This document shows positions 29,216 through 59,247 of a stretch of DNA of 64,000 nt, one piece after another (the first letter of the stretch is position 1; each line of letters starts with the position of its first letter). The translations under genes were made by a program, and so were the position numbers. The notes under the pieces are model-generated. The model did no database searches. It saw nothing but the letters and a program-made list of their open reading frames with translations, and had not been told where the DNA came from. This stretch comes from Streptomyces sp. NBC_00448 (GTDB taxonomy: Bacteria > Actinomycetota > Actinomycetes > Streptomycetales > Streptomycetaceae), in contig NZ_CP107913.1 in NCBI RefSeq assembly GCF_036014115.1, positions 9,132,501-9,196,500 of the forward strand, in the 5' to 3' direction.

Positions 29216-29526
29216 GCTGGCCGTCCGGCCCCCCGATCCCGCTCCCCGCACCAGGACGGCGGTTCGGGTGGGTGCCGCACCGCTCTGCCCGCACCGGTGC
29301 CGTGCACGGCGCGGCGCTGCGGCACCGTCGGGAGCGGTGACAGCACTCCTGGGCCGGGCGGCTTCCTGGGCCCCAAGGAAGCTGCGGATGCGACTACCCC
29401 CGTCGCCCGTGCAGGGTGGCCGCCGGCATACAGGTGCGGTGTTCGCCTCGGCGGTGATGGCCGTGAGGAGATGCCGCAGGTGGGCCTACGGCCTCCGTTC
29501 GAGCCGGACAGGAAGTGCAGAAACCG
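29216..29526. other. Stretch without a gene between tetR remnant and the biosynthetic cluster
   Basis: 311 bp of high-GC DNA in which I find no coding or regulatory motif. Confidence 0.5.
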
Positions 29527-31779
29527 TCAGAGATCCCAGAAGAAGAGCAGGTTTTCCACCAGCAATGCCTCCCAAGGTGTCAAATGGACGTGCGCGGCTC
29601 GCACAGCCGCCTCGACCTGGTTCATGTCGAGCTCCTCGAAACACTGTTGATCGGCCAACTGTCGCGCGGTGAGTAGGAGCCGGTGCCACGCCAGCCGTTC
29701 GAGGTCCTCCTTCGGCCCGGTCACGCTCGGAAAGGACTCCGGGCAGCACGCGAGCCGGTCGTCGGTGAGCAGCACGTGCTCACGCTCAAGTGCCCGGCTC
29801 ACGACCCGCACCTGAGATCTCCACGAGGCGACGCCGTCTCGCAGCCGGTCCCGGGTCGTCCGTAGTTCCGCAAGGTGCTCACGCAGCAGCTGCTGCGCCG
29901 CAGGGGCGGCAGCGAGTGGATGGGACGCGATGGCGTGGGAGATGCGGGTCTTCAGCGCGTACAGGACCGTTAAGGGGTCGTCCTCGGCAGTAGTCGGACT
30001 GAGGGCCTCGGCTACGTATGAGAGGTGTTTCCCCCGTGGCGACGGGCTCGTGACGTATTGCGGCAGGACATCGAGTAGCTGCCTCGGGCTGAAATACAGG
30101 AGACACTCGCGCAGCGCGGCTGCGCTGTCGTCCGAACTGTGCACCAGGGCCAGGATCTTGGAGTAACTGCGCAGTCCGCCACGAATGGAATCGGGAGCTG
30201 CGTCGGCCGGCTTCGAGGCGCCCTTCAACCGCAGAAGTCTCTCGCAGGCTGCGCCGTCGGGGTGTTGGAGGAGCAGCCCCAAAGAGGTGCCCATGCTCAG
30301 TCCCTTGCGGGTCAGGTGCCAATGCGTGCGCTGGTGATCCAGGATCTTGGCGCGCAGACCGTACTTGTACAGCTCCTCGATGTCGCTGTCTCGCAGGTTC
30401 CGGGTCCGGTGCGCGCGAATACGGAAGCCCGCGTCGTGCACGTGGGCGAGAATGTCGGCGTGCTTCCCTCTGTGCACGGCGTCAGGCGTGATGATCATGA
30501 AGGCCAGTTGGTCTGCCGCGAGGGTCAGACCCGCTCGACCCAGTTCCTCGACATCGGAAAGAGACAGCGGGTAGTCCTCGCGGGACTCGGCGGCGTCGAG
30601 CACCTGCTGGTACGGAGTGGACATGCCGGCTCTCCTCCGGGGTTCATGGACCGGTGTCGTCGCTGAAGGGCGCGGTCCTCCGGTGCCGGAGAAGAAGAAC
30701 AGGCTCTCCAGCACGGTGCGTTCCAGCGGGCCCAGTCCGATGCCCAGGGCATCGAGCGAGGACTTCAGGCTTGTGAAGCCGTCAGCGTCGATGGCCGCCG
30801 GTTCGGCGAGCATCCGTAGGCAGGCGAACGCGGTTCGGGGTTCGGTGGTCCGCCCGCATTCGTCCGACCGCTGTGCGACGCTTCCGCCGGGCGGCGCAGC
30901 GTCCTGGAGCAGGTCGCGCTCCTGCTTCAGGTGCCGGGCGATGGCCTGAGTCTCCGGGCCGTGTCCGGGATCGGCGTCCACCACGTTCATCGCCGAGCGG
31001 TACAGGGTGTCAGCCGCCTCCAGCACTCGGGGCGGCAGCAGCCCCTCCATCGCCGTCTCGGCCAGCAGGCGCCGCTTCAACCGGTAGAGCACCCGGTAGG
31101 ACTCGATCCGCGGCACGGTGGTCGCGGCCTCGTAGCCGGACACCACGGCGCGTTCCGCCGGGCCCCAGTGCGGTCCGGCCAACAGCCGTGAGAGTTCCCG
31201 CGGTTCGAAGAGCACGCTCGCCTCGTACAGCATGCTCAGTAGGTCGTCGGAGCTGTGCAGGAGGCCGAAGGTCTTGTTCGGGGTGCGGTAGTCCGCCCGG
31301 TAGGAGCCCGGTTGGGCGAGCTGCGGGTCGGAGGCGCCCTTCGCGGTCGTGACGGTCTGCTGGAAGGACGGGTCCGTGGGATGGCGCAGCAGGAGGACGA
31401 GGGCCTCACCGAGGTCGAACACCTTGCGCTTGATCCACCACGACCGGATGTGGCGCCCGGGCACCTCGGTCACCAGCCCGTCGTGGTAGACGCGTTCCGC
31501 GAGCCGGGGGGTCAGTGTCCGGAACCGGAAGGCCACCACGTGCTCGCCGTGCTCGCCGAGCAGCCGCTGATGCACCCCCTGCATGAGTCCGTCAGGCGGG
31601 ACCACGGCCAACGCGGTACGGCGCAGTGCCGGCAAGCAGGCGTCGGGCAGTGCCTCGACGATCTCGCGGTGGAAGTCGGCGAGTTCCGGGTAGGTCCCGA
31701 CCAGGGCCGCCAGCTCGGCCCGGACCCCGTCTGCTGCCTGCTGCGCGGCGCGAGCTTCGCGTGTCGGTAGTGGCTTCAT
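29527..31779 (-). CDS. Tandem nucleoside-diphosphate-kinase-like protein (two repeats)
   Basis: 750 residues and the last gene of the cluster operon; its ATG directly follows the transketolase stop. It holds two units of about 340 residues. Unit 1 has LAVVPPDGLMQGVHQRLLGE, GASDPQLAQPGSYRADY and GLLHSSDD; unit 2 has LAFMIITPDAVHRGKHADIL, GASKPADAAPDSIRGGL and ALVHSSDDSAAALRE. These align to the NDP-kinase core: the KPDG strand, the NPxxAxPGTIRG segment with its Arg, and the catalytic-His loop. The His is kept in both units; the nucleotide-phosphate-binding Lys of KPDG is Pro or Thr. Each unit ends in a helix (L-x-P-x-E-x-x-x-x-E-x-L-x-F-F). Authentic NDP kinases are about 140 residues. The function is unknown; phosphotransfer or nucleotide binding is inferred. 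A Met at about 30624 could start the second unit separately. Confidence 0.75.
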   Translation of the reverse strand: MKPLPTREARAAQQAADGVRAELAALVGTYPELADFHREIVEALPDACLPALRRTALAVVPPDGLMQGVHQRLLGEHGEHVVAFRFRTLTPRLAERVYHDGLVTEVPGRHIRSWWIKRKVFDLGEALVLLLRHPTDPSFQQTVTTAKGASDPQLAQPGSYRADYRTPNKTFGLLHSSDDLLSMLYEASVLFEPRELSRLLAGPHWGPAERAVVSGYEAATTVPRIESYRVLYRLKRRLLAETAMEGLLPPRVLEAADTLYRSAMNVVDADPGHGPETQAIARHLKQERDLLQDAAPPGGSVAQRSDECGRTTEPRTAFACLRMLAEPAAIDADGFTSLKSSLDALGIGLGPLERTVLESLFFFSGTGGPRPSATTPVHEPRRRAGMSTPYQQVLDAAESREDYPLSLSDVEELGRAGLTLAADQLAFMIITPDAVHRGKHADILAHVHDAGFRIRAHRTRNLRDSDIEELYKYGLRAKILDHQRTHWHLTRKGLSMGTSLGLLLQHPDGAACERLLRLKGASKPADAAPDSIRGGLRSYSKILALVHSSDDSAAALRECLLYFSPRQLLDVLPQYVTSPSPRGKHLSYVAEALSPTTAEDDPLTVLYALKTRISHAIASHPLAAAPAAQQLLREHLAELRTTRDRLRDGVASWRSQVRVVSRALEREHVLLTDDRLACCPESFPSVTGPKEDLERLAWHRLLLTARQLADQQCFEELDMNQVEAAVRAAHVHLTPWEALLVENLLFFWDL

Positions 31780-32691
31780 CTAGCAACGCTCCAGAACTCG
31801 GTGCACCAGATCGTCCGCTGACACACAGTAGGCATCCAGCAACTCCGCGTGGCTGCCCGACGCGTAGCAGAAGCGGTCTTCGATGCCCAGCCGAAGCAGC
31901 GGCGGTGCTGCCCGGCGGCCGGCCAGCACCTCGGCCACCGCGGATCCCAGACCGCCGATGACGTTGTGCTCCTCGATGGTGAGCATCAGTCGGGCGGTGG
32001 CGGCGCACTCCACGATCAGGCCGCTGTCCAGCGGTTTCACCGTCGGCAGGTAGACGATGCCGACGCTCAGGCCCGCGGCGGTGAGGCGCTCGGCGGCCTC
32101 GCGGACCGTCCGCGTCATGCTGCCGGTGAACGCCAGGACCACGTCGTCGCCCGGTTGCAGCACCGCACCGGCTCCGATGGGCGGGGCGGTGCCGTCCGGG
32201 TCGTCAGGCTCCTGCTCCGGGGGCATCCGTACGTACACCGGTCCGGGAAGCGCCAGCGCCTGGGGGAAAACGGCTGTCAGATCGCGGAAGTCGCGGGGCG
32301 CCAGCACGGTCATGCCGGGGATCGCGCGCATGATTGCCAGGTCCTCCGTCGCGTGGTGCGTCGGCCCTGAACGGGACGCCGCGAGCCCTCCCTTGCTCGC
32401 ACAGATCGTGACGTTGAGGCCCTGGTAGGCGATCGAGGTGCGGATCTGCTCACAGGCCCGCATCGTCGCGAAGGTCGCGAACGTGTGCACGAGCGGCCTC
32501 AGCCCCATCAGCGCCATGCCGGCCGCGAGGCCCATGGTGTTCTGCTCGGCGATGCCGGTGTTCACGAACCGATCGGGCCAGTTCGCGCTCACTGCCGCCG
32601 ATCCGCTGCTGCGGGACAGGTCCGCGTCGAGGACCACGACCGCGGAGTCCGCCCGCATGACGTCGAGCAGAAGCCTCGAAAACCTTTTCAC
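31780..32691 (-). CDS. Transketolase, C-terminal half (pyrimidine and C domains)
   Basis: 303 residues. It carries the pyrimidine-binding part of a ThDP enzyme: D-A-D-L near residue 24, FVNTGIAEQNTMGLAAGMAL with the catalytic Glu that activates ThDP, and GPTHHATEDLAIMRAIPGMTV (the conserved G-P-T-H-H-x-x-E-D). The C-terminal domain follows. It is the partner of the next gene upstream; together they equal one transketolase of about 570 residues. Split transketolases occur in actinobacterial natural-product pathways that move a two-carbon ketol unit. Spacing to the partner gene is 10 bp. Confidence 0.9.
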   Translation of the reverse strand: MKRFSRLLLDVMRADSAVVVLDADLSRSSGSAAVSANWPDRFVNTGIAEQNTMGLAAGMALMGLRPLVHTFATFATMRACEQIRTSIAYQGLNVTICASKGGLAASRSGPTHHATEDLAIMRAIPGMTVLAPRDFRDLTAVFPQALALPGPVYVRMPPEQEPDDPDGTAPPIGAGAVLQPGDDVVLAFTGSMTRTVREAAERLTAAGLSVGIVYLPTVKPLDSGLIVECAATARLMLTIEEHNVIGGLGSAVAEVLAGRRAAPPLLRLGIEDRFCYASGSHAELLDAYCVSADDLVHRVLERC

Positions 32692-32701
32692 CGCGCTCCG
32701 T

Positions 32702-33514
32702 TCAATAGAGGGAGGACAGGGCGTGCGCCAGTTGCCGGGAGGAGAGGGAGCCGCTGTGCCAGGTGTTGTCGCCCTCCATCGCCGGTACGCCCTTGCCCTT
32801 GACGGTGCGGGCGACGATCACCCGGGGACGTCCGCAGCCGGGCGCGGACAGCGCGTGGTCGAGAGCGGCCAGGTCGTGCCCGTCGCAGTCGACGGCTTCG
32901 AGGCCCATCGCCTCGATCTTCGACGCGAGCGGTTCCACGTCGATGATGGTGGCGGTGGCACCGTCCGCCTGCGCGCCGTTGCAGTCGATGACCGTGTGGA
33001 CGGTGTCGAGCTGGTGCCGGCCGATGAACATCAGTGCCTCCCAGACCTGTCCCGACTGCATCTCGCCGTCGCCCAGGACCGCGTGCACGTGGACCTCGCG
33101 CCCCGTTGCCCGTGCCGCGAGCGCCATGCCCGCCGCCATGGAGAGCCCCATGCCCAGCGACCCGGTGGACACGTCCACCGCTCCGGTCGTGGTCCGGCAC
33201 GGATGGCCGAGCAGCGGGCCGCCCGCTTCCATGATCGTGTCCAGGTCCTCGGACGCTATCAGCCCCAGATCGGCGAGCACGGCGTACAGCGTGATGCACG
33301 CGTGTCCCTTGGACAGGACGAACCGGGTGTCGGGCAGCGTCGGCGCGTGACCGTAGAAGATCGACACGAGGATCTCCACGCAGGACAGCTGCCCGCCGAG
33401 GTGGTGCGGTCTGCCGTGAGACAGCCTGAGCGTCTGTTCGCGGATCTCCCGCGCCTTGTCCCGTTGCCGGGTCAGGTCCCAGGAGACGGCGGGGGAGGCG
33501 CCGGTCGACGTCAC
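32702..33514 (-). CDS. Transketolase, N-terminal half (ThDP diphosphate-binding domain)
   Basis: 270 residues from GTG 33514, which overlaps the methyltransferase stop (GTGA). The diphosphate motif is GDGEMQSGQVWEALMF with the following DCNG (G-D-G-x(~27)-N). The SKGHACITLYAVLADLG and STGSLGMGLSMAAGMALAAR motifs are transketolase signatures. It pairs with the C-terminal half downstream. Predicted reaction: transfer of a glycolaldehyde unit from a ketose phosphate to an acceptor aldehyde or acyl group in the pathway. The acceptor is not known. Confidence 0.9.
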   Translation of the reverse strand: MTSTGASPAVSWDLTRQRDKAREIREQTLRLSHGRPHHLGGQLSCVEILVSIFYGHAPTLPDTRFVLSKGHACITLYAVLADLGLIASEDLDTIMEAGGPLLGHPCRTTTGAVDVSTGSLGMGLSMAAGMALAARATGREVHVHAVLGDGEMQSGQVWEALMFIGRHQLDTVHTVIDCNGAQADGATATIIDVEPLASKIEAMGLEAVDCDGHDLAALDHALSAPGCGRPRVIVARTVKGKGVPAMEGDNTWHSGSLSSRQLAHALSSLY

Positions 33515-34311
33515 GCCGGCCGCCGGTAGACCAGCACATGCTTGAAGTCGGCGATCTCCCAGCCGGGTTCCACTCCGTCCAGGGCAAGGATCTGACGGTC
33601 GTCGAATCGCCTCACCGCAACCCTCTCCAGACCGCAGGCGGTGAGAACCGCGTCCCACTCCTCCAGCGAGTAGAGGAAGTGCACCTCACGCATCTCCGAC
33701 TCCCAGTCGGGGTCGCGGTACTTCGTGAGGAACTCCAGCGCGTCGTCCTCCTGGAGGACGACCGTGTCCACGGTCTTCTGCGTCCACGGCACCGGGCGCA
33801 CGGAGTAGTCCCGGATGAAGCGGCCGAACAGGTCCCGGACCTCGTCCGTGACGATGCGCAGGGCGACCCTGTCCCGGCTGGGGACCGCGTTCTCGTAGAC
33901 CAGGACGTGCCTGCCGGGGCGCAGGGCGTCCCGTGCCGCGGTCACGGCGGCCTTCAGCCCGTCCTCGCCGGACAGGGAGTACACCTCGTGGAGCGACCGG
34001 TTGAACACCGCGCTTCCCAGGCTTTCGTCGGGGAAGGTCCGGTCTTCCAAGCCGGCTTTGACGAGCAGGACGTTGGGCCGGTGCCGGGCGGTGTTCCGGT
34101 CGAGTATGTCGGCGCTGTGGTCCACCCCCGCGAAGAACAGGTCCGGATGGCGTTCGGCCAGGTAGGACAGCGGAATGCCGTTGCCGCAGCCGAAGTCCGC
34201 CACCGGACCGCGGAAGTGTTCCGCCATGTAGTCGACGGCGGGTTTCTGGAGTTCGAAGCGACGGGCGAGCCCTTCTATGAGCACGTCGTTCTGCTCGGAT
34301 GTCCGATTCAT
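33511..34311 (-). CDS. SAM-dependent methyltransferase
   Basis: 266 residues; ATG 34311 overlaps the stop of the aminotransferase gene (ATGA). Class I Rossmann methyltransferase: motif I VADFGCGNGIPLSYLAER near residue 38, the acidic motif II FFAGVDHS, and later GRHVLVYENAVPS. The C-terminal part (EFLTKYRDPDWESEMREV, FDDRQILALDGV) is less familiar. The acceptor (O, N or C) cannot be read. Its position between aminotransferase and transketolase suggests a tailoring step on the same small intermediate. Confidence 0.85.
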   Translation of the reverse strand: MNRTSEQNDVLIEGLARRFELQKPAVDYMAEHFRGPVADFGCGNGIPLSYLAERHPDLFFAGVDHSADILDRNTARHRPNVLLVKAGLEDRTFPDESLGSAVFNRSLHEVYSLSGEDGLKAAVTAARDALRPGRHVLVYENAVPSRDRVALRIVTDEVRDLFGRFIRDYSVRPVPWTQKTVDTVVLQEDDALEFLTKYRDPDWESEMREVHFLYSLEEWDAVLTACGLERVAVRRFDDRQILALDGVEPGWEIADFKHVLVYRRPA

Positions 34312-35249
34312 GCGTCCTCCGTGGAGCTGACGGGAAGGGTGGTGAACCACTCCGGACGCCGATCGGTGCTGAGCGAGCCGGATGCGATCTCTCTTTTCAG
34401 CGACGCGGCGAGGGTGTTCGGGCCGGCGGCCAGCGGGCGCCCGTCCAACTCGCCCACCTGTCGGACGAGGTGGGCGGTGTTGGTCAGGAACACCTCGTCC
34501 GCCGCGTACAGGTCCATCGGCAGCAGCCGTCCTTCGGCGACCCGGAACCGGCCGTCGTCGCGCAGAAGCTCCAGAACCGAGTCCCGGGTGACTCCAGGCA
34601 GCACGCCGCTGTCCAGAGGAGGGGTGACGACCGACATCGTGCGCCGATCGACGACGAAGACATTGGCCTCCGCGGCCTCCGTCACCTCTCCTTTGCCGTT
34701 GAGGAAGATCACGTTGTCGTAGCCGGTGGAAAGGGCTTCGGTGAGACCCAGACGCGCGTTGTAGTAGTTGGCGGTGGCCTTGGCCTGGGTCGGCATGCTG
34801 CTGTCGTCGATCCGGCGCCAGGAGGTGATCCGGCAGCGCAGTCGGGGACAGCCGTCGAAGAAGGACGGCGGCGTCCTGCGGAGGAACACCGCCACCCTCG
34901 GCGTGAGCGCGCCGAGGTCCACCAGCGAGGAGCCCGCGAGAACGGCGTCCCAGTAGACCATGACCTTGAGGTAGCAGGTGTCGTCCTCGGCGGAGTTCGC
35001 ACGGACGATGTCCGCGACGGCGGTGAGCAGATCTCCGGCCGTGAGGGGGAGCTTGGCGCCTACCACCGACAGTGAGCGGGCCAGCCGCCGGAAGTGCGCG
35101 TTGAAGCGGAACACCGCGGTGCCCCGGCCGGGCACCGGATAGCAGCGCATGGCCTCGAAGAAGGCTGTCCCCAGCGCCGACGACACACTGTTCACATGCA
35201 GCGACACCGTTTCCTCGGCGACGATCCCGCCGTCCAGCCAGGCGTCCAC
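34308..35249 (-). CDS. Class IV (branched-chain type) PLP aminotransferase
   Basis: 313 residues; ATG 35249 is one base after the ATP-grasp stop. Fold-type IV PLP enzyme: PLP Lys in SMPTQAKATANYYNARL near residue 159, Y-D-N-V-I-F-L-N-G-x-G-x-V-T-E-A-A-E-A-N (phosphate cup with the family Glu), and LPGVTRDSVLELL near the end. Members include IlvE, D-amino-acid aminotransferase and ADC lyase. The Arg and Tyr that set stereochemistry cannot be assigned by eye, so L- or D-product is open. It probably aminates the ketose-like intermediate made by the transketolase. Confidence 0.85.
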   Translation of the reverse strand: MDAWLDGGIVAEETVSLHVNSVSSALGTAFFEAMRCYPVPGRGTAVFRFNAHFRRLARSLSVVGAKLPLTAGDLLTAVADIVRANSAEDDTCYLKVMVYWDAVLAGSSLVDLGALTPRVAVFLRRTPPSFFDGCPRLRCRITSWRRIDDSSMPTQAKATANYYNARLGLTEALSTGYDNVIFLNGKGEVTEAAEANVFVVDRRTMSVVTPPLDSGVLPGVTRDSVLELLRDDGRFRVAEGRLLPMDLYAADEVFLTNTAHLVRQVGELDGRPLAAGPNTLAASLKREIASGSLSTDRRPEWFTTLPVSSTEDA

Positions 35250-36233
35250 TCAGCGTGTCCTTTCCACGTCCGGTTCCCGCGACGAGACGCCGTCCGGGTG
35301 GAGCAGTGCTCGCACCGGCCGGACGAACTGCCGGGTCAGCAGGGCGTCCAGGCTCTCGCCGCGCATGGCGGCGGCTGCGGGGAAGTAGCTGTGCTCGGTG
35401 AGTCCGACCGTGGCGCCGGCGTCGAAGACCGCCGGTTCGCCGTCGGCGGTGATGATGGCGTTGATGTAGAAGCATCCAGCCAGGTCGAACTCCTCGGCCA
35501 TGGCACGCCCCAGCGAGCGCAGGCGGTCGAGTGTCGCCGGCCGGAGGTCCACCGGTGTGAAGGCGTACTGCCGTGACATCTTGACCGCGTGGTCGAAGAG
35601 GACGGCGTCCTTGGCCACGGACAGGGGCGGGTACAGGTCAAGACCGCGGGACGACGCCTCGTAGCCGACGCAGACCTCCAGGCCCGGCACGTAACGCTCC
35701 ACCAGAACCGTCTGATCGATCTCGAACAGGCCGTCGAGGTGCTCCCTCAGGTCCGCCCGCCGAGGGTCCGCGCTGTCGAAGAACCGCACTCCGGCGCTGA
35801 GCATGTCCGCGGTGGCGGGTTTCAGGACGACGGGGCCTTCCAGCAGTCCGATGGCCGACCAGCTGGACGCAGGCGCGTGGTTGTCCAGCACCACATGGGG
35901 CGGTGTGCCGAACCCGTTCCGGGCGAGGAACGTCTTCAGCCGGACCTTGTCGTACACCTCGGCCTCGAGTGCTCCGGTTCCGACGAAGGCGAGACCGGCA
36001 GCGGCAGCCAGTGGCTCCGCTCTGCCGTAGACGCCGTAGGTGAGGTCCTGTAGCAGACGCAGCTTCCGGCGGGCGAGCGCGGCGGCGAACTCCTCGGTGC
36101 CGTACAGCAGTACGGTGGCTTCGATGCCGGACGACTCCAGGAGTTCGGCGACCCGGTCGGCCAGCGTTTCCGACGACTTCCGCAGGAGGTCCCGGCCACC
36201 GGCGAGCACTCCGACCGGGCGGTTGGCAGTCAT
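35250..36233 (-). CDS. ATP-grasp protein related to D-Ala-D-Ala ligase, altered metal site
   Basis: 327 residues from ATG 36233. The three-domain order is like Ddl: G-V-L-A-G-G-R at the start, VYDKVRLKTFLARNGF, PVVLKPATADMLSAGV (ATP Lys), VLVERYVPGLEVCVGY, and a C-terminal INAIITADGEPAVFDAG. Compared with the VanA in this window (VDMFLTEDGEVVLNEVN), the three Mg ligands D, E, N are N, D, G, and the S-G-S-S loop is missing. It may have a different metal site, a carboxylate-amine ligation with another substrate, or lost ligase activity. Operon position suggests peptide-bond formation on the pathway product. Confidence 0.75.
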   Translation of the reverse strand: MTANRPVGVLAGGRDLLRKSSETLADRVAELLESSGIEATVLLYGTEEFAAALARRKLRLLQDLTYGVYGRAEPLAAAAGLAFVGTGALEAEVYDKVRLKTFLARNGFGTPPHVVLDNHAPASSWSAIGLLEGPVVLKPATADMLSAGVRFFDSADPRRADLREHLDGLFEIDQTVLVERYVPGLEVCVGYEASSRGLDLYPPLSVAKDAVLFDHAVKMSRQYAFTPVDLRPATLDRLRSLGRAMAEEFDLAGCFYINAIITADGEPAVFDAGATVGLTEHSYFPAAAAMRGESLDALLTRQFVRPVRALLHPDGVSSREPDVERTR

Positions 36234-36247
36234 CGCGCCGCTCCCGT

Positions 36248-37852: not shown

Positions 37853-37915
37853 GTCACTCTCCAAGGTGGATGCGGGGCGGGGGATCGGGCCGTGCGGGCG
37901 GACCCACCGCCGGTC

Positions 37916-39115
37916 TCAGACCGAGCGGACGCGGGCCGCGGCGGCGAAGGGCGGTTCGGAGCCCGGTTCGAGCAGGAGAGGACGCCGGTCGCGGAGCCGT
38001 TCGCTGAAGCTGCCTCGCCAGACCAGGTAGCCGCCGTCCACGGCGCCCGCGCTGTGGAGCCAACCGTCGTCGCAGTAATCGCCGAGTGCCAGTTCGTCCG
38101 TGAGGGAGCTGCCGTACACGTCGTCCACGTGACGGCACACCCAGGCCACGGCCGGCTCCAGGAAGTGCTCCGTGATGATATTCCTGATCTCGTCACCACG
38201 GTCGCGACCCAAGCGCTCCCAGTAGCGCCACACGTCGGCGCACTGCCCGAGGCGTACGTCCTTCTCACGGATGGTCCGCTCGAACCACCCTTCGCGGAAG
38301 AGGTGCAGTACGACGAAGAGGAAGCCGTACGGCGTGTCGAGCGAGGGCAGTTCGGCTCGGTCGTCCTGCTCTGGCACGCCGTTCACGGTGACGACGCGCT
38401 CCAGCGCCGAGGCGGTGAGGATCTGCCAACTGCTCCCGTACCAGGTGAGGTTGTATGCCACGTCGACCATGAAGTACGGGATGCCGTCATCATCCGCGGG
38501 GACGCGGAAGAAGTGCGGCAGATGATCGGGGTAGAGCTGGTACATCAGTTGCAGCGACCGCGAGATGTCCAGCAGTTCGCCGGTTCGGTGGTCGAACTTC
38601 TTCGCTCCGGTGTAGCCCAACCGGTAGAGGACCTCTGCCGCCCTGTCGCGGTGTTCCGGCGGCACCATCAGGTCGATGTCGCCGAAGTGGCGGATGCCGC
38701 GGCCGTCATAGAGAGATGCCTGGCAGACGACCCCTTTGGTGCAGGCGGCGCGCACGCCCGCGTCGGCGAGGGCCGCCGTGACGCGGGCCGCCTCGATCGC
38801 GTACCGGCGGGTTTTGAAGCGGTTCCAGTGCAGGGTGCCGAGCAGGTGCCGCTGGGCGTGGTGCGGCATCGACGGCAGCAGCTCGGCCTGCACCAGGAAG
38901 TCCGCCAGGCTCGGGACCAACGCGTGCCGTGCCGCCTGGGCCAGTAGATCGTCCGGGTCGGGGAGTTCGGACGCCAGCGCCCGTGCCTCGTCGAACGCGG
39001 CGCTGCCGGGGTCGGCGATCGATATGCGCCGCAGCAGATCCCAACCCGGGTCCCCGATCCGGGATGCGTGCCCGTCCACTCTGTTCTCCTCAGGTCTCCC
39101 GTAGTGATCCCTCAT
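37916..39115 (-). CDS. Nucleotidyltransferase-fold protein (PF14907-like)
   Basis: 399 residues; ATG 39115 overlaps the stop of the synthetase-like gene (ATGA). The core has CTKGVVCQASLYDGRGIRHF then GDIDLMVPPEHRDRAAEVL, the pattern K-G-x(n)-G-D-I-D-L-x-V of the uncharacterised nucleotidyltransferase family PF14907, with the D-x-D metal pair. A helical C-terminal region of 200 residues follows. Members occur in biosynthetic gene clusters of unknown function. It may adenylylate or otherwise activate a substrate; no kinase or GT motif is visible. Confidence 0.75.
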   Translation of the reverse strand: MRDHYGRPEENRVDGHASRIGDPGWDLLRRISIADPGSAAFDEARALASELPDPDDLLAQAARHALVPSLADFLVQAELLPSMPHHAQRHLLGTLHWNRFKTRRYAIEAARVTAALADAGVRAACTKGVVCQASLYDGRGIRHFGDIDLMVPPEHRDRAAEVLYRLGYTGAKKFDHRTGELLDISRSLQLMYQLYPDHLPHFFRVPADDDGIPYFMVDVAYNLTWYGSSWQILTASALERVVTVNGVPEQDDRAELPSLDTPYGFLFVVLHLFREGWFERTIREKDVRLGQCADVWRYWERLGRDRGDEIRNIITEHFLEPAVAWVCRHVDDVYGSSLTDELALGDYCDDGWLHSAGAVDGGYLVWRGSFSERLRDRRPLLLEPGSEPPFAAAARVRSV

Positions 39116-40314
39116 ACCGGGCTCCGGCTGTTCATCCGGAGCCGGACCGGGGCCGGCCACTGCTCGATGTCGAGCCCGTGCTGGCTGAGGAACGCGTAGG
39201 TGAGGCGTTCCAGCCCGAATCCGACGCAGGCCGTCTGGGCGGTCGCCCCGTCATCAAGGGTGATGTGGAAAGCCGAACCGAACTTGTCCCCGTGGAGGTT
39301 GAACGAGCCGGCGGCGACCGAGCGCCCCCCTTCGACCGGCAGGCGCAGCTCGTACTTGAGTTCCATCAGCTCCTGCGCCAGGACCCGTTCGGAGGTCGAC
39401 TTTCCGGAGAAGAACGGATCATGGGCTACTTCGGCGTGCCCGGGCAGTGCGAGCGCGTCCATCAGACGCCAGGTCTGCTCCATGAAGCGCCTTCTCTGTT
39501 CGGCGACCCCCTCCCGGTCGCCGACGAAGACGATCTCCCGGATGGTGAAGTCCCAGAGCCGTTCCACTCCTCGCCGATAGCGGGACTCGAACCGGAAGGA
39601 CTTCCCCCGAGCGGTGAACACCGCGCTGTCCGCGGTCAGTTGCCGATCCTGCAACTGCCGGTAGGTGTGGAAGCACATGGTGGGCGGCAGACAGTGGCCG
39701 AGGTGTTCGCTGAACATGTCGAGATGACGCCCGGTGTCCGAGGCGTCCCCCAGACGTGAAAGGAAGGCGTCGTAGACCTCGGCGTCGCAGTGCAGGCGAC
39801 TGGCCGTCATCAGGAACTGGGGGAACGCGTCGAGGTAGCCGCCGCGGCGGAGGGCGTCCGTGGCGATCAGCGTGGGATAGCGGTAGGCGACCGCGCCGAA
39901 GGCGTCGACGGCGATGTCGCACACCATCTGGTCGAGCGCGGTCAGCAGTTCGGTGAACAAGCCTCCGGTGGCGTAGAGACCTTCACCCATCTCCACGACC
40001 GCCGAGGCGTCCCGCAGTTCGTCCCACACCTCCGGCTCCCCCTGGCGAGCCTCGTGCCGGGAACGCCAGACCACCGCGCTCGGCCGTCTGCGCTGCGGCA
40101 GCACGTCGTTCGCGATCAGGAGATCGAGTTTGCGGGCCAGCTCCGCCGGATCGGCATCCGGCTCGGTCGCCACGTCGACGGCGACGACCTCGCCGGCCTC
40201 TTCGACCAGGGCGTAGTCCACGATTACCGACGAGGCGTAGTAGAGGCGCTGTTCGAACTCGGCCTTCTTGTCGGCGGGCACCGCACTGCGCAGAGGTATC
40301 CGATGACTGGGCAT
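39112..40314 (-). CDS. Class II aminoacyl-tRNA-synthetase-like amino acid:carrier-protein ligase
   Basis: 400 residues. It has class II motif 2 (TARGKSFRFESRYRRGVERL, fRxE) and motif 3 (GFGLERLTYAFL). Between them is the zinc or substrate region with Cys residues (HLGHCLPPTMCFHTYRQL). The tRNA-binding arm of seryl-tRNA synthetases is absent. This matches the SerRS-like amino acid:[carrier protein] ligases, which adenylate an amino acid and load it on a carrier protein. The carrier and a flavoenzyme lie directly upstream in the operon, supporting this role. The amino acid cannot be read from sequence; Cys and Glu zinc ligands suggest a small amino acid. Confidence 0.8.
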   Translation of the reverse strand: MPSHRIPLRSAVPADKKAEFEQRLYYASSVIVDYALVEEAGEVVAVDVATEPDADPAELARKLDLLIANDVLPQRRRPSAVVWRSRHEARQGEPEVWDELRDASAVVEMGEGLYATGGLFTELLTALDQMVCDIAVDAFGAVAYRYPTLIATDALRRGGYLDAFPQFLMTASRLHCDAEVYDAFLSRLGDASDTGRHLDMFSEHLGHCLPPTMCFHTYRQLQDRQLTADSAVFTARGKSFRFESRYRRGVERLWDFTIREIVFVGDREGVAEQRRRFMEQTWRLMDALALPGHAEVAHDPFFSGKSTSERVLAQELMELKYELRLPVEGGRSVAAGSFNLHGDKFGSAFHITLDDGATAQTACVGFGLERLTYAFLSQHGLDIEQWPAPVRLRMNSRSPV

Positions 40315-40333
40315 TGCGCCTCCGTGATGTGGG

Positions 40334-41503
40334 TCAGATGAGGCTGACGGAGCGGTCGAGGAGGGTCAGCGCGCCGATTCCCGTCCACAGAGCGTCGTTC
40401 GCGTGATTCAGACTCGCCGAACGCAGGTCGCGGAAGTGCCGTTCCAGCGGTACCGGAGACCTCCGTCCGTACCCCAGGCGCAGGCCGCCCATCTCCACCA
40501 TCCGGTCGACCGCGCGGAACGTGTGCTCGGACGCGATCACCTTCAGGGCACTGAGTTGAAGCTGGGCCCGGGGCTCCGCGAGCGAGCGGCCCTCGGCCCG
40601 GGCCTGTTCCACCTGCTCGAGCACCCGGTGCAGATAAGCGCTGACCAACTCCAGTTCGACCCGGATGCGGGCGAGCCGTTCGTAGAACAGCTCTCCCGGG
40701 GTGCTGGACCCGTTGGCGCGAAACCACGCCACCAAGTCGGCCAGGGCGCCGCGGGCCGCACCGAGCCAGCAGGCGGACCAGCCCAGGTGCGACAAGGGGA
40801 TCATGCTCGTACGGGCGATCTCGGCGAATCCCCCGGGCGGGCCGACCACGTTCTCCGCCGGCACCCGACCGGACAGCTCCAACCCCCCACTCGCGGTGGC
40901 CCGCATGCCCATGACGTCCCAGCCGCCGTTTTCGTCGACGCGCAGATCGCGCCGGTCGGCGTAGACCAGCGACACCTGTTGCTCGGTGGCATCCTCGGCG
41001 GCGCGCATGGTGAGGAGGAACCCTTCGGCCTGGGCGCCGCCGGACACCACCGGAGCCGACCGCTCCACCAGCAGGTGGTCGCCGTCGACACGCAGCGGTT
41101 CCCTGGCGCTGAAGAGGTCCGAGGGCCGGCCGCGCTCGCTCGTCACCGAGGCGATGTACACCTCACCGGCCGCGACGCGCGGTAGGAGCGCATCCTTCAG
41201 CGCCGTGGACCCGTGCCGCGTGATGGCATCCACCTGGAAGCAGTGCATGGTCCACAGGTGCGCGGTGGACAGGCAGGCGCCCGCCATCCTCTCCGCCACG
41301 GACACGAAGGTGCGCAACGAGGCCCCCCGACCGCCGAACTGCGCGGGCACGATGAGCCCCAGCAGCCCTTCCTTCCGCAGCGCCTTCATCGAGGCGTGCG
41401 GGAAGCAGCTGCGGTCGTCCGCTTCGCCGGCCCCCTGTCGCAGCACCGGGAGCACGCGGGCCAGCGCTGCCTCCCACGAGCCGGCCTCCGCCCGGTCGTT
41501 CAT
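40334..41503 (-). CDS. Acyl-CoA-dehydrogenase-like flavoenzyme
   Basis: 389 residues; ATG 41503 overlaps the carrier-protein stop. It has the acyl-CoA dehydrogenase fold: GLLGLIVPAQFGGRGASL near residue 50, the FAD-binding VYIASVTSERGRPSD and VSGGAQAEGFLL region, LSGRVPAENVVGPPGG, and the C-terminal RHFRDLRSASLNHANDALW. The usual catalytic Glu of CaiA-type dehydrogenases is not clearly seen. The end resembles the N-hydroxylase and monooxygenase branch of the family. Together with the ligase and carrier it probably oxidises an aminoacyl thioester (desaturation or N-oxidation). Confidence 0.8.
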   Translation of the reverse strand: MNDRAEAGSWEAALARVLPVLRQGAGEADDRSCFPHASMKALRKEGLLGLIVPAQFGGRGASLRTFVSVAERMAGACLSTAHLWTMHCFQVDAITRHGSTALKDALLPRVAAGEVYIASVTSERGRPSDLFSAREPLRVDGDHLLVERSAPVVSGGAQAEGFLLTMRAAEDATEQQVSLVYADRRDLRVDENGGWDVMGMRATASGGLELSGRVPAENVVGPPGGFAEIARTSMIPLSHLGWSACWLGAARGALADLVAWFRANGSSTPGELFYERLARIRVELELVSAYLHRVLEQVEQARAEGRSLAEPRAQLQLSALKVIASEHTFRAVDRMVEMGGLRLGYGRRSPVPLERHFRDLRSASLNHANDALWTGIGALTLLDRSVSLI

Positions 41504-41778
41504 GGGCGCGCCTGCGTCGGCGTGTCGGAGGAGCGCCGGCTCTCCTCCAGGACCCGCCAGAGCCCCGAGAGGCTGGTGAAGACTCGGAATTCGAGGTGCT
41601 CGTCGGCCACCTGGACGCCGTACGCGTGCTCCAGCGCCATGAGGAGTTGCACCATTCCCAGCGAACTCAGGCCGAGCGCCGTCAGATCGAGATCAGGAGT
41701 CAGTGATCTCTCGGGGCTCAGCCCTTTGACGTTGTCACGTATCACCGTTTCAAAACGCTCGTCCCAGATTTGTTCCAA
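41500..41778 (-). CDS. Stand-alone acyl/peptidyl carrier protein
   Basis: 92 residues from TTG 41778 (AAGGA about 10 bases upstream); longer starts in the same frame add a tail without ACP similarity. The phosphopantetheine site is DLTALGLSSLGMVQLLMALE: the Ser sits in S-S-L where most carriers have D-S-L. Helix III follows (AYGVQVADEHLEFRVFTSL). It is the first gene of the operon and overlaps the flavoenzyme. It probably holds the amino acid during oxidation and carbon-chain extension. Confidence 0.85.
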   Translation of the reverse strand: MEQIWDERFETVIRDNVKGLSPERSLTPDLDLTALGLSSLGMVQLLMALEHAYGVQVADEHLEFRVFTSLSGLWRVLEESRRSSDTPTQARP

Positions 41779-41900
41779 TGGTCGTGTCCTTAAGTCCGTG
41801 AGATGGACAAGACGATCCGGCCGGACTTCGCAGTTGCGGATCGGAGATGAGGAGTCGTGCGGATTGCACACCGAAAGGCGGAGCGCGCCTCAAAGCGGGG

Positions 41901-41929
41901 AATGTAATCGCGACCGGTGCGGCTGTCAA
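41901..41929 (-). promoter_or_regulatory. Near-consensus promoter of the biosynthetic operon
   Basis: On the minus strand TTGACA (41929-41924), a 17-bp spacer and TACATT (41906-41901). The spacing is ideal for the major sigma factor. It lies about 120 bp upstream of the carrier-protein start. The divergent MFS gene has a weaker candidate (TTGACA at 41984-41989 on the plus strand). Confidence 0.7.
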
Positions 41930-42114
41930 GGACAGCGATAGGTCAGCGACAAGGGGCGTCAACGCCGTTGCTTTAAGGCGTGGTTGACAGCACTACCGGG
42001 ACGCGCGATGCTCCTGTACCGCTCACGCCGCCCGCGGACCGCCTTTTCCGCGGTCGTCGGCCAGGTGTGCTCGAATCTTGTTCCGACCGCCACGCACATA
42101 GGATTCGGCGCCGT

Positions 42115-43386
42115 ATGCCGCACGCAACCGAGGCGACCCAGCAGAGCACGAACAAGCCGCTGGCGCTCCCCCGATTCCGACGCTATTTCGCTGCCCGCAC
42201 CATATCCCTTACCGGCGATGCCATGCTTCCGGTGGCTCTGACCGTCGCCGTGCTCAACGACGGCTATGGCGCCACGGGGGTGGGACTGGTTCTCGCCGCG
42301 CCGCTCGTCCCCTGGGTCTCGCTGATGCTTTTCAGCGGTGTCCTCGCCGACCGGATCGGCCCGCTGCCGATGATGGTCAGTTCCGACCTGATGCGTTTCG
42401 TCGGCCAGGGAATTCTGGCGACGGCGATCCTGCTGGGGCACGCGCCCCTCGTGCTCCTGGTGGTGATGCAGGTGCTTTCGGGCATCGGCACCGCCTTCTT
42501 CCAGCCCGGTGTGGGCAGCATCGTCTCCGATCTGACAGAGGAGGTCCAGCAGGCGGTCGGGCTGCTGCGGACGTCTGAGGCCATGGTGACGATGCTGGCG
42601 CCCGCGGTCGCCGGGCTCGCGCTGACCGTGTGGAGTCCCGGTGCCGTGGTCGGTGTTGACGCGGCGTCGTTCGCCGCGAGCGGCGTGCTGCTTCTGTTCC
42701 TCCGGTTGCCCGGGCGGAAGGCGGCGCAGGCGCCGAGAGGCGGCTTCGTCAGGTCCGACCTCGTCGAAGGGTGGCACGAGTTCACGTCCCGGCGCTGGCT
42801 GTGGACGGTCATCGTGATCTTCGGCCTGTTCGGTCTGCTCGTCTTCGGCCCCTTCTACGTCCTCAGCGCCTCCACCATCACCGAGCACCATGGCAGCCAG
42901 ACCTACGGCATGGTGGTCGCCCTCCAGGGCGTAGGAGCGATCTGCGGTGGCTTCCTGGGCACGAGAATCCGACCGCGGCGGCCTTTGAAGGTGGCGGCCG
43001 GCGTCCTGCTCCTCACGATCCCCCAGGTCCTGGCGCTGGCGGGCGGCGTCGGGATCCCGCTGCTGGCGGGGACTGTCTGCCTGGGGGCCGTCGGGCGCTC
43101 GGTGTGGAGCGTCCTGTGGGGGAGCACCGAGCAACTGCACGTGCCGAAGGCCGTGTTGAACCGAATCTACGCCTACGACGTGGTGGGCTCGGTCGCCCTG
43201 CTCCCGGTCGGCCGGGCCCTGGCCGGCCCGCTCGCGGAGGTCATGGGAGACACCCCGCTACTCCTGCTCTCGGCAGCCGCCGCGCTGGCAGGCTCCGCGG
43301 CCATGCTCGCCACACGCGAGATTCGCACCTTGCCCGCGGCCCCGGCCGCTGCCGCCTCCGAGCGCTCCCGTCCGTCCGCGTGCTGA
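42115..43386 (+). CDS. MFS transporter (drug or product exporter)
   Basis: 423 residues from ATG 42115 with twelve predicted transmembrane helices (FAARTISLTGDAMLPVALTV, LVLAAPLVPWVSLMLFSGVL, and so on). The loop 2-3 motif is G-V-L-A-D-R-I-G-P-L. It resembles the enterobactin-exporter/DHA3 branch. Divergent from the biosynthetic operon and followed by the condensation-domain gene, it probably exports the product or confers self-resistance. The 336-bp divergent region between this gene and the carrier gene holds both promoters. Confidence 0.85.
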   Translation: MPHATEATQQSTNKPLALPRFRRYFAARTISLTGDAMLPVALTVAVLNDGYGATGVGLVLAAPLVPWVSLMLFSGVLADRIGPLPMMVSSDLMRFVGQGILATAILLGHAPLVLLVVMQVLSGIGTAFFQPGVGSIVSDLTEEVQQAVGLLRTSEAMVTMLAPAVAGLALTVWSPGAVVGVDAASFAASGVLLLFLRLPGRKAAQAPRGGFVRSDLVEGWHEFTSRRWLWTVIVIFGLFGLLVFGPFYVLSASTITEHHGSQTYGMVVALQGVGAICGGFLGTRIRPRRPLKVAAGVLLLTIPQVLALAGGVGIPLLAGTVCLGAVGRSVWSVLWGSTEQLHVPKAVLNRIYAYDVVGSVALLPVGRALAGPLAEVMGDTPLLLLSAAAALAGSAAMLATREIRTLPAAPAAAASERSRPSAC

Positions 43387-43438
43387 ACCCATCGCGGCGT
43401 AAGGACGTCGACCACCTGCCACGTCATGGAGGGTTCCG

Positions 43439-44749
43439 TTGACCGAGACATTCCCGCTCAGCTCCGAGCAGCGCAGCATGCTCCACATGGACCGCCTCCT
43501 CGGTCCCGGCATCCTGCACAACCTCGTCGCCTCGCTGGAGGTGCCCCGCGGCACCACGAACAGAACCGTCCGGCACGCCGTCGAGCGACTGGCCGAGCGG
43601 AACCCCGCCCTCACCGCGACACTGGCTGAGGGAGCCCACGGCACACGCCAGCAGACCGGGCGGCGGGACGTCGAGGTCCACTCCTTCGCCCCGTCGTCCG
43701 GCGGCGACATCGAAAGCCGCCTCGATCGCCTACGCCACCTCCGCCTCGACCGCTCCACCGGGGCCCGGGCGACCGTGCGTCGGCACACCGACGGAGCGGG
43801 CGACCGCCTGATCCTGGCGGTGGACCACCTGGTGTGCGACGCCGCCGCGCGTGAACTCGTTGTGCGCGACACCTCGTCCCTGCTGACCGGCGGCGGACCC
43901 GCCGCCGACGCCCACACCGCGCCCCAGGCGTACGCGGCCTACTGCCGGGAGCAGGAGGCCGCTCTGGCGGACGGACAGGTCAGGCGGCGGGAGATCGAGC
44001 GCTGGAAGTGCGCACTGCGGGGCTGCCGGCCCCTGACCGGCCTCGGCTCGAAGGCCGCGGCCGACGCCCCCCGTGAGGCCAGGTGCTGGGAGATCCACGA
44101 GCCGGGACCGGCGCTGCACGACGCGCTGCGCCATCTCGCGGCGGCCACGGCGACCAGTCCCTTCGTGGTCGGCGCCGCCCTGTACGCGACCGCCCTGTGG
44201 GCACGGACCGGGGTCCGGTCGAGCGCACTGGTCACTCCGGTGTCCACCCGCAGGGCGCCGGAGCACCAACGCCTGGTGACGAACCTGGTGAACGAACGCC
44301 CGGTGCCGTACCGCATCGTCCCCGACGAGGGTTTCACCGTGCTCGCGCAGCGCCTCGGAGGGAGCTTCCTCTCAGCGTTGCGCGGCGCGTCACTCGCGAT
44401 TCCCGACCTGGTCGCGACGGTGGACGGGTACCGGGAGCTCCTCCATGCGCCGGACTGCGCCTACGTCCAATTGCAGGTGTCGCTCGGCAGCGCCGCACCG
44501 TCCGACCTTCCGGCAGGGGAGCGGAGTTGGCCCTGGGGGGCGCCGTACGCGGCGCCGACCGGCATCACCTGCACGGTGTTCCGGGTGAACGCCTCTCCGC
44601 GCGGCGCCCGGCTCAGCACGTTCCACGGCGGTCCCACCGGTCAGGGGACGGCGGTCGCGGCGATCTCGAAGGACGTCATCCGGCTGGCAGGACTGGCGGC
44701 CGGCGACCCGCGGACGCCCGTCGGCCGCCTGGCCGACGAAGCGTGCTGA
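43439..44749 (+). CDS. Stand-alone condensation-domain protein with altered HHxxxDG
   Basis: 436 residues from TTG 43439 (GGAGG seven bases upstream). It has the condensation-domain layout of CoA-dependent acyltransferases and NRPS C domains: PLSSEQRSMLHMDRL at the start (like S-x-x-Q-x-R), and AVDHLVCDAAARELVVRDTS, the catalytic motif. The usual HHxxxDG is DHxxxDA: the second His and the Asp are kept, the first His is Asp, and Gly is Ala. No A or T domain is present. It is probably a stand-alone condensation or release enzyme acting on the carrier-bound intermediate; an inactive scaffold is possible. Confidence 0.75.
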   Translation: MTETFPLSSEQRSMLHMDRLLGPGILHNLVASLEVPRGTTNRTVRHAVERLAERNPALTATLAEGAHGTRQQTGRRDVEVHSFAPSSGGDIESRLDRLRHLRLDRSTGARATVRRHTDGAGDRLILAVDHLVCDAAARELVVRDTSSLLTGGGPAADAHTAPQAYAAYCREQEAALADGQVRRREIERWKCALRGCRPLTGLGSKAAADAPREARCWEIHEPGPALHDALRHLAAATATSPFVVGAALYATALWARTGVRSSALVTPVSTRRAPEHQRLVTNLVNERPVPYRIVPDEGFTVLAQRLGGSFLSALRGASLAIPDLVATVDGYRELLHAPDCAYVQLQVSLGSAAPSDLPAGERSWPWGAPYAAPTGITCTVFRVNASPRGARLSTFHGGPTGQGTAVAAISKDVIRLAGLAAGDPRTPVGRLADEAC

Positions 44750-44769
44750 CGGCGCCTCGACCGGGGCCT

Positions 44770-44819
44770 CTCCGGATCGCCGGGTTGTCCCGCCGGCGGG
44801 ACAACCCGGCGATCCGGAG
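44770..44819. terminator. Perfect 50-bp palindrome: bidirectional terminator
   Basis: Arms of 25 bp (CTCCGGATCGCCGGGTTGTC then CCGCC, and its complement) meet with no loop. It is 20 bp after the condensation-domain stop and downstream of the minus-strand LmbU-like gene, so it can terminate from both sides. Loop-less palindromes of this size are uncommon. Confidence 0.75.
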
Positions 44820-44942
44820 GAACCCCGGTGCCGGAACGGCGGCAGGGTCCCGGCACGATGAGGAACCGGGTGTGATCACGCCGGCCGTGCGAGCCGTCCG
44901 CCGCGAGCCGTCCCGACCTCGTGAGCCGTCGATCGCATGACG

Positions 44943-45617
44943 TCACCCGGCGACGGCGTCATGTGGCGAGTCCACGTCCAACTCCGCGGCTGCCGCGGCA
45001 TCGAGTTTGAGCACGACCCAGTCCTCGAGTCGGACGTGAGAGTGCTCGGCCGCCGAGCGCCATCGCGCGATGCGCTCCGGGGCGGCGGTGATGGCGGGCA
45101 GGAGGTTGCGCTCGGCCGAGGCCGTCCCGGGCCGACGAGCGTCTCGGATGCTCCTGCGCAACTGGTTGCGGGACCAGTCGCACTCTTCGGCACGCCCCAG
45201 CCACATGTCCTGCTCCTCCGGGCCGAGTGCGGCGACCTCCGCGTGGTGCTGGAAGCTGAGGCCGGCCCTGCGCCGGGAGACCTCGACCTGTCGCGCGACC
45301 CACGCGTAGTTCCGGATGGTCTGGTATTCCAGCCCGACGGCATCGACGGCCCTGCGGTAGCGGTCCTCGAAGCGGGAGCGGCCATAGTTGATCCAGTCGC
45401 CGAGGCACCAGGCGACCGAGTCCAGCGTCTGGGAGATCCGGTGCCCGACCTGCTCCCACACGTCATAGGTCAGCCGATCGGGAATTTGCAGACCCACCCG
45501 GGTGACCATCACCTGCCGCACCGGATGCCCGGCGCCGCCGTTCGTGCCGTCCTGCGGCCCGACGGCGGCGGACGTGCCATCGAGTTCACGCCCTTTCCGC
45601 TCCGCCTTCGTTCCCAT
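44943..45617 (-). CDS. LmbU-family transcriptional regulator
   Basis: 224 residues. The core matches the LmbU family: MVTRVGLQIPDRLTYDVWEQ, WCLGDWINYGRSRFEDRY, LEYQTIRNYAWVARQVE, LSFQHHAEVAALGPEEQDMW. LmbU-type proteins activate lincomycin and other antibiotic clusters in Streptomyces. It lies between the biosynthetic cluster (past the 50-bp palindrome) and vanX. It is therefore the most likely cluster activator; it might also touch the van genes. The start at 45617 is supported by a G-rich ribosome site; a shorter start at MVTRVG is possible. Confidence 0.85.
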   Translation of the reverse strand: MGTKAERKGRELDGTSAAVGPQDGTNGGAGHPVRQVMVTRVGLQIPDRLTYDVWEQVGHRISQTLDSVAWCLGDWINYGRSRFEDRYRRAVDAVGLEYQTIRNYAWVARQVEVSRRRAGLSFQHHAEVAALGPEEQDMWLGRAEECDWSRNQLRRSIRDARRPGTASAERNLLPAITAAPERIARWRSAAEHSHVRLEDWVVLKLDAAAAAELDVDSPHDAVAG

Positions 45618-48338: not shown

Positions 48339-48371
48339 GCCTCCAGTGAAGGCGGCTTGCTGTTGCCGGGG

Positions 48372-48402: not shown

Positions 48403-48429
48403 CCCTACTGCCCTGGCGGGAGGCATGAC

Positions 48430-58562: not shown

Positions 58563-59247
<685 letters not shown>

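Follow-up and report, generated by a model that had tools for sequence, protein, structure and literature searches.

A thirteen-gene, non-modular cluster of Streptomyces sp. NBC_00448 recurs in Kutzneria and Actinoplanes and may join two biosynthetic branches

The stretch of DNA analyzed here (the window) is 64,000 nucleotides long and spans positions 9132501-9196500 of one 9.65 Mb contig of Streptomyces sp. NBC_00448. It carries an 11-gene minus-strand operon (window 29527-41778) which, read from 41778 downward, encodes an acyl carrier protein (ACP), a flavoenzyme of the acyl-CoA dehydrogenase (ACAD) fold, a ligase resembling seryl-tRNA synthetase (SerRS), a PF14907 nucleotidyltransferase, a B12 radical S-adenosylmethionine (SAM) enzyme, a Ddl-like ATP-grasp enzyme, a class IV aminotransferase, a methyltransferase, the N and C halves of a split transketolase, and a tandem protein related to nucleoside diphosphate kinase (NDPK). 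A divergent plus-strand pair (42115-44749), consisting of a major facilitator superfamily (MFS) transporter and a stand-alone condensation (C) domain, brings the cluster to 13 genes (Table 1). Pfam and NCBIfam matches placed every gene class named in the initial annotation on the strand given there and support its description of a non-modular cluster with a carrier-loading ligase. The genes are tightly packed, as was also claimed, but "mostly overlapping" was too strong: 4 of the 10 operon junctions overlap, by 4 bp each, and the other six have gaps of 0-63 bp. Gene starts are gene-caller predictions, and several of the open reading frames (ORFs) used in family searches were longer than the final genes.

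Table 1. Genes of the cluster and the adjoining regulator gene, in window coordinates, with family matches (E-values).
Feature	Position	Strand	Family match
Tandem NDPK-like protein, 750 aa	29527..31779	-	PF00334 1.2e-20, 2 stretches
Split transketolase, C-terminal half	31780..32691	-	PF02779 (Transket_pyr) 3.1e-37 + PF02780 (Transketolase_C)
Split transketolase, N-terminal (thiamine diphosphate, ThDP) half	32702..33514	-	PF00456 3.5e-28 (on longer ORF)
SAM-dependent methyltransferase	33511..34311	-	PF13649 (Methyltransf_25) 6.6e-8 (on longer ORF)
Class IV aminotransferase, branched-chain aminotransferase (BCAT)-like	34308..35249	-	PF01063 1.9e-42
Ddl-like ATP-grasp enzyme, altered substrate site	35250..36233	-	PF07478 2.1e-10 (on longer ORF)
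B12-dependent radical SAM enzyme, probable C-methyltransferase	36248..37852	-	PF04055 1.3e-19, PF02310 3.8e-8
PF14907 (NTP_transf_5) nucleotidyltransferase	37916..39115	-	PF14907 3.6e-31
SerRS-like amino acid:[carrier protein] ligase	39112..40314	-	PRK07080 2.8e-54
ACAD-fold flavoenzyme, ligase-linked subfamily	40334..41503	-	PF02771 (Acyl-CoA_dh_N) 4.4e-16
Stand-alone carrier protein (ACP)	41500..41778	-	PF00550 4.8e-8 (on longer ORF); start uncertain
MFS exporter (predicted)	42115..43386	+	PF07690 2.8e-28 (on longer ORF)
Stand-alone C domain	43439..44749	+	PF00668 5.8e-13
LmbU-family regulator, cluster membership unproven	44943..45617	-	NF038070 1.1e-63

The gene set is more than a chance association, as it recurs in the same order in Kutzneria and rearranged in Actinoplanes. 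The radical SAM protein served as query against 84,980 species genomes, which gave 116 confirmed relatives, of which we retained 80. Orthologs were found in Kutzneria sp. CA-103260 (85% identity) and Actinoplanes subtropicus NRRL B-24665 (68%), and among the 80 loci, some of which lie on short contigs, these were the only two at which more than one further query gene matched. Because the scan depends on exact matches to 8-residue patterns, it can miss clusters that have diverged further. A search of genomes for the gene set, which the initial annotation had called for, thus found all 13 genes together in Kutzneria, in the order and orientation of the window and with 65-86% protein identity (methyltransferase 86%, MFS 77%), and all 13 functions in Actinoplanes. 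At the DNA level, window and Kutzneria are 78.6% identical over 29526-41801 and 74.7% identical over 42157-44733.

In the ~56 kb round the Kutzneria cluster, blastn gave no further match at E<=1e-5, and window genes from outside the cluster had no match at E<=1e-10. The conserved unit therefore stops at about 44749 and not at 45617, where the right edge had been drawn. The gene at 44943-45617 encodes an LmbU-family regulator. This regulator has no counterpart at E<=1e-10 in the ~56 kb Kutzneria or ~52 kb Actinoplanes cluster regions, and we dropped it as a proven cluster member for lack of a match in either. The first gene past the C domain in Kutzneria (L116:2554-3492) resembles, by eye, a ParB/StrR-type regulator. 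Within the divergent intergenic region (41779-42114), GTGGTTGACAG and GCTGTCAAGGA are common to window and Kutzneria by eye and mark possible divergent promoters.

The Actinoplanes genes run MFS, nucleotidyltransferase, radical SAM, Ddl-like, aminotransferase, methyltransferase, transketolase N, transketolase C, two separate NDPK-like genes, C domain, ACP, ACAD, ligase. Compared with the window, identity falls into two ranges: 46-68% for the MFS protein (56%) and the eight core proteins, which include the methyltransferase (64%), and 30-33% for ACP, ACAD, ligase and C domain (32% for the C domain, and 32% over 53 residues for the ACP).

At E<=1e-10, the NDPK-like query matched 3 of 394 family genomes, namely the source and two others at ~1e-12 over one domain, with no other cluster gene in the 20 kb read round those two. 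The radical SAM query matched 8 of 394 at E<=1e-40, source included; in the 18-20 kb read around each of the other seven, the radical SAM gene alone matched. In a plasmid collection, the nucleotidyltransferase, Ddl-like enzyme and methyltransferase had no match at E<=1e-15 and the NDPK-like protein none at E<=1e-7, and the matches of the transketolase C half and the aminotransferase belong to broad families. It should also be noted that a single NDPK-like protein occurs in a different locus common to two genomes (L031 9943-10368 and L032 9808-10236), the L031 protein showing the same Lys loss as the cluster proteins described below; by eye, its neighbors resemble GTP cyclohydrolase II, a PaaK-like ligase, a class II aminoacyl-tRNA synthetase-like protein, an HpcH-like aldolase and PhyH. 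Another locus (L024:777-14075) combines a radical SAM relative (38-39%) and a phosphoketolase-like ThDP enzyme with methyltransferase, MR/MLE, luciferase-like and PhyH genes.

The rarity of the NDPK-like gene, for which the only match at E<=1e-10 among 35 genus genomes is the source itself, together with a transposase and a group II intron in the region to the right, could suggest an accidental neighborhood or a decaying remnant instead of a working pathway. This reading is contradicted by the cross-family conservation, with 13 functions open and together in three families and the checked catalytic motifs present, and we consider it extremely improbable. Conservation of a small non-modular cluster in three actinobacterial families indicates that it is probably under selection.

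The ligase is encoded two genes downstream of the ACP gene in the same operon, and several comparisons support its prediction as the carrier-loading enzyme of the cluster. Its best NCBIfam model is PRK07080, amino acid--[acyl-carrier-protein] ligase (184 bits, under the equivalog cut-off of 357), ahead of the SerRS model PRK00960 (133 bits), and among PDB entries Bll0957 (3mey, 6.6e-32) matches better than 3w3s (1.4e-25). Cys, Glu and Cys residues, which we take to be the three Zn ligands, align with those of 3mey and are kept in 7 of 7 ligases aligned. The window protein falls in a group of longer (~400 aa) actinobacterial ligases.

The initial annotation had counted carrier, oxidase and ligase as part of the novelty, but this trio is a widespread cassette and not novel to the cluster. 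We opened five plasmid ligase loci from outside Streptomyces (Phyllobacterium, Azospirillum, Rhizobium, Mycetohabitans and Tsukamurella). The first four have the ACP-ACAD-ligase order of the window, followed by DUF1839 and then a GH2/beta-mannosidase gene, and no core gene is annotated in their 5-6 kb flanks. At least 50 of the 60 plasmid ACAD relatives listed (67 in all) lie less than 1 kb from a listed ligase relative, a lower bound because 60 of 85 ligase records were listed. The listed ACAD relatives away from a ligase include the four closest, Streptomyces records at ~43%. The two of these that were opened (plasmid loci L156:10356-22100 and L157:8862-19441) place the ACAD relative beside an ACP, an adenylate-forming enzyme and a pyridoxal phosphate (PLP) enzyme; a flavin reductase is the fourth gene downstream of the ACAD, and no SerRS-like ligase is annotated near. 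A Pantoea plasmid (L159:7723-12062) carries a row of ACP, ACAD relative (35%), hypothetical gene, aroA and cysC, as annotated.

Similar genes could also serve a ZmaGHI-type pathway, in which seryl-ACP would be oxidized twice to an aminomalonyl extender unit. The nearest plasmid ligase relative (51%) lies in a stretch without annotation, and two of the three nearest (46%; L011, L012) do adjoin genes for an ACP, an ACAD, a 3-hydroxyacyl-CoA dehydrogenase, an acyltransferase and a ketosynthase. By Pfam results, the cluster genes include none of the last three, and the window ACAD is 28% identical to the L011/L012 ACADs and groups with ligase-linked ACADs instead. We reject the aminomalonyl pathway for the lack of a second dehydrogenase, acyltransferase and ketosynthase, and hold it to be very improbable.

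The nearest PDB entry to the flavoenzyme is 5xb8, a TdsC/DszC-type monooxygenase (3.2e-18). The YEGT motif of ACADs is replaced by NHAND in window and Kutzneria and by IGNGR in Actinoplanes, and the alternative helix-G site also has no Glu; the Glu of YEGT, or its helix-G alternative, is presumably the catalytic residue of acyl-CoA dehydrogenases. These features suggest that the protein is more likely a flavin monooxygenase than an alpha,beta-dehydrogenase. Against this assignment, ordinary acyl-CoA dehydrogenases match nearly as well (5e-17), the cluster encodes no flavin reductase, and the annotations of the four proteobacterial trio loci and of two other ACAD loci list none.

The trio of Actinoplanes differs from that of the window, most clearly in its ligase. 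This ligase shares 30% identity with the window ligase but 36-43% with rhizobial and Tsukamurella ligases, with which it groups, apart from the window's, in a tree of 11 rows (split support 98/97). For the Actinoplanes ACAD, the identities are 33% with the window protein and 37-41% with rhizobial ACADs. The Actinoplanes ligase is thus, by tree, of rhizobial type, and the oxidase, by identity, likely so. The C domain, which adjoins the trio in Actinoplanes, has a DHxVCD motif in 3 of 3 orthologs; against the HHxxxDG of nonribosomal peptide synthetases it reads DHLVCDA or DHFVCDG, with the second His and the Asp kept and the first His lost. The simplest reading is that the trio, perhaps with the C domain, was replaced as a unit in Actinoplanes; this is best supported for the ligase and likely for the ACAD.

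The core enzymes combine kept catalytic motifs with changes at substrate sites. The transketolase C half is closest to the C chain of a split transketolase (6yaj, 4.3e-64); the ThDP motif GDG (GDGE in the N half) and the AEQN glutamate are kept in 3 of 3 orthologs. The 6yaj segment THAGLTVGEDG reads SKGGLAASRSG in the window and (S/T)KGGL(A/S)A(S/A)RSG across the three orthologs, so that GED becomes SRS or ARS and His becomes Lys, with the Lys and Arg-Ser kept throughout; we take the altered positions to be the acceptor-site Asp469 and His461 of the E. coli enzyme. The aminotransferase is closest to a BCAT (5ce8, 2.2e-47), and its AKATANY motif with the PLP Lys is found in 3 of 3. The radical SAM protein has CxxxCxxC in 3 of 3, a B12-binding domain at 33.6 bits (cut-off 32.1), and the PhpK family as its best NCBIfam model, with 138 of the 600 bits needed. 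The nucleotidyltransferase motif GD[IV]DL is likewise in 3 of 3.

In the Ddl-like enzyme, Glu15, Arg255, Asp257, Glu270 and Asn272 of E. coli DdlB correspond to Leu, Tyr, Asn, Asp and Gly, the last four substitutions being kept in 3 of 3 orthologs; the ATP-site Lys residues are retained. We take Glu15 to act at the donor site, Arg255 at the acceptor site, and Asp257, Glu270 and Asn272 as Mg ligands. Ligation by this enzyme, as first proposed, is therefore unproven: with the D-Ala- and Mg-holding residues of Ddl gone, the name D-amino-acid ligase does not fit. We accordingly rejected D-Ala-D-Ala-type ligation, for which the substrate residues are lost.

For the NDPK-like protein, which in Actinoplanes is encoded by the two adjacent genes (L119), one His and one Arg are invariant over 7 NDK-like domains and a T. 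thermophilus segment. All 7 domains have Thr or Pro in place of the Lys of the KPD motif, and the 6 cluster domains have also lost the Asn before the His, which only a distant protein (G077) retains. Presumably the His is catalytic, the Arg binds nucleotide, and the Lys and Asn belong to the NDPK active site. The NDPK-like protein and the nucleotidyltransferase were modeled with AlphaFold2, but the models were too poor to use (mean pLDDT, the per-residue confidence score, 48.5 from a 4-row and 51.9 from a 3-row alignment, respectively).

The different ligase and oxidase type in Actinoplanes, together with the occurrence of the trio elsewhere, leads us to a reading in two modules, an exchangeable arm and an eight-gene core. 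We give about even credence to the proposal that the cluster makes a small molecule from two such converging branches. Comparative support is for the modular architecture alone; the reactions, their order and all substrates are inferred from enzyme families. The arm would be made by the ACP, ACAD-like enzyme, SerRS-like ligase and C domain: the ligase would adenylate a small amino acid (Gly, Ala or Ser) and load it onto the ACP, the flavoenzyme would oxidize the carrier-bound amino acid, and the C domain would pass the oxidized aminoacyl group to an amine of the core. The core genes encode the split transketolase, BCAT-like aminotransferase, methyltransferase, B12 radical SAM enzyme, Ddl-like ATP-grasp enzyme, PF14907 nucleotidyltransferase and NDPK-like protein. 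Here the transketolase may add a two-carbon unit to an aldehyde and the aminotransferase make the amine, with the methyltransferase and radical SAM enzyme methylating or decorating the core. The ATP-grasp enzyme could form one further bond via an acyl phosphate, and the nucleotidyltransferase and NDPK-like pair could activate or mask a hydroxyl or phosphate. The MFS protein would export the product.

Several points weigh against this reading. The trio is not obligate: Tsukamurella, where the genes lie among glycosyltransferase genes, and S. decoyicus have ligase and ACP with no ACAD annotated alongside. The Actinoplanes row is a long branch in the ligase tree, and the ACAD tree (8 rows) does not resolve its position and gave a long-branch warning. 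The low identity of the Actinoplanes ACP and C domain could be drift and not replacement, and the clusters found total three.

The initial annotation had instead proposed a single linear path, in which an ACP-loaded amino acid is oxidized, extended by two carbons while bound, transaminated and ligated by the Ddl-like enzyme. Every enzyme class that it requires sits in one operon, and oxidation of tethered glycine could yield an aldehyde-level acceptor. However, no finding links the transketolase or the aminotransferase with the carrier, the trio occurs as an independent cassette, the Ddl-like enzyme is without the Ddl substrate residues, and the C domain, nucleotidyltransferase and NDPK-like protein are left without a role. 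Moreover, Actinoplanes keeps the core with a ligase and oxidase of another type, which two converging branches fit better than a single path. We regard the linear scheme as possible but unlikely and continue to favor the two branches.

To the right of the cluster, 0.9 kb past the C domain, begins a vanX-vanA-vanH-FemAB-vanJ series, of which vanX and vanA (D-Ala-D-Lac type) score above a model cut-off and vanH and vanJ match well but below theirs. Genes for a VanS-like kinase and MurF follow farther right, as does a second vanX. The vancomycin-resistance region (45675-63284) is rearranged: between the first series and a group made up of the response regulator/VanS-like pair, murF and the other vanX (62676-63284) lie genes for a CmlA-type diiron hydroxylase, a DDE transposase and the reverse transcriptase of a group II intron. 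The relatives L143, L145 and L151 have their van genes grouped together. In Actinoplanes subtropicus, a decayed vanA in at least 3 fragments and two frames (L119:349-873) lies just upstream of the cluster, and full-length vanA homologues are present elsewhere in the genome.

This neighborhood raises the question of whether the product is an antimetabolite of the D-Ala branch of cell-wall synthesis, the producer being protected by its vanHAX system. The adjacency itself, the decayed copy just upstream of the Actinoplanes MFS gene, and the finding of vanA at E<=1e-120 in 7 of 35 genus genomes only, the source among them, are consistent with such a role. Conversely, the best Kutzneria vanA homologue lies ~5 Mb from the cluster, the three relatives whose flanks were read over 20-40 kb (G007, G019, G020) show a van locus with no such cluster beside it, and the aminotransferase is BCAT-like and not clearly D-specific. 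Since two of three clusters are linked, one of them to a decayed copy, and Kutzneria is not, and since the linkage was noticed after the fact, it is suggestive only, a weak lead, and we find a cell-wall antimetabolite distinctly doubtful. In its boldest form, the two-branch proposal would have the cluster yield compounds of a structural family that is new. Their core, either a C-methylated amino-polyol or an aza-heterocycle, would arise by the transketolase/aminotransferase logic of azinomycin and be closed via a leaving group that is nucleotidylated or phosphorylated; it would carry an N- or C-oxidized glycyl, alanyl or seryl arm, with a D-Ala step of the cell wall as target and van-type bypass protecting the producer. 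The nucleotidyltransferase and a repurposed NDPK would then supply the leaving group, and the exchangeable carrier cassette the arm. We consider this full version quite unlikely.

On the reading in two branches, another carrier-loading module within an otherwise orthologous pathway is a natural experiment that separates arm from core, and the prediction is that the arm is different or re-made in Actinoplanes. The cluster is probably tractable to heterologous expression, and it places three under-characterized enzyme types in one testable pathway: a PF14907 nucleotidyltransferase, an NDPK-like protein without the kinase Lys, and an ATP-grasp enzyme without the Ddl substrate residues.

The enzyme classes are each known, but neither their combination nor the change of trio was found described in the literature searched; MIBiG and most subscription papers were beyond the reach of that search, which, as the initial annotation expected, turned up no characterized cluster of this content. 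The zwittermicin-type aminomalonyl-ACP pathway likewise uses an ACP, an ACAD-fold enzyme and amino-acid activation; its second dehydrogenase, acyltransferase and polyketide synthase are absent here, and the window ACAD is of another group. In butirosin biosynthesis an amino acid is built on a stand-alone ACP and transferred to an acceptor amine. The proposed arm would follow the same logic, with a C domain in place of the papain-like BtrH and a different loading enzyme. The PhpK-type B12 radical SAM methyltransferases provide the best model by score for the radical SAM protein, which falls far under the cut-off (138/600 bits), and Pfam results for the cluster include no phosphonate gene.

In azinomycin biosynthesis, the split transketolase AziC5/C6 extends an aldehyde by two carbons, ahead of an aminotransferase (PMC9570651), which is a precedent for the proposed start of the core branch. 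The two-gene transketolase followed by aminotransferase is shared with the azabicycle pathway. The present cluster differs in that its genes include no member of the acetylglutamate kinase/reductase families by Pfam results, its aminotransferase is of class IV, the transketolase acceptor motif is altered, and B12 radical SAM, NDPK-like and nucleotidyltransferase genes are added.

Finally, a close parallel for the arm is the Bll0957/PRK07080-type ligase cassette, with which the window shares the gene order of the trio (4 of 5 loci outside Streptomyces) and the Zn ligands. Its partners are DUF1839 and a GH2-type enzyme, unlike the C domain and eight-gene core found here. PMC10318531 treats DUF1839 as a papain-like family and BtrH, which belongs to another papain-like group, as an ACP:aminoglycoside acyltransferase; on the basis of genomic context, its authors propose a possible role for DUF1839 in acyl-CoA-dependent processing of cell-wall glycans. 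In the proteobacterial cassette, DUF1839 occupies the place of a possible acyl-transfer partner.

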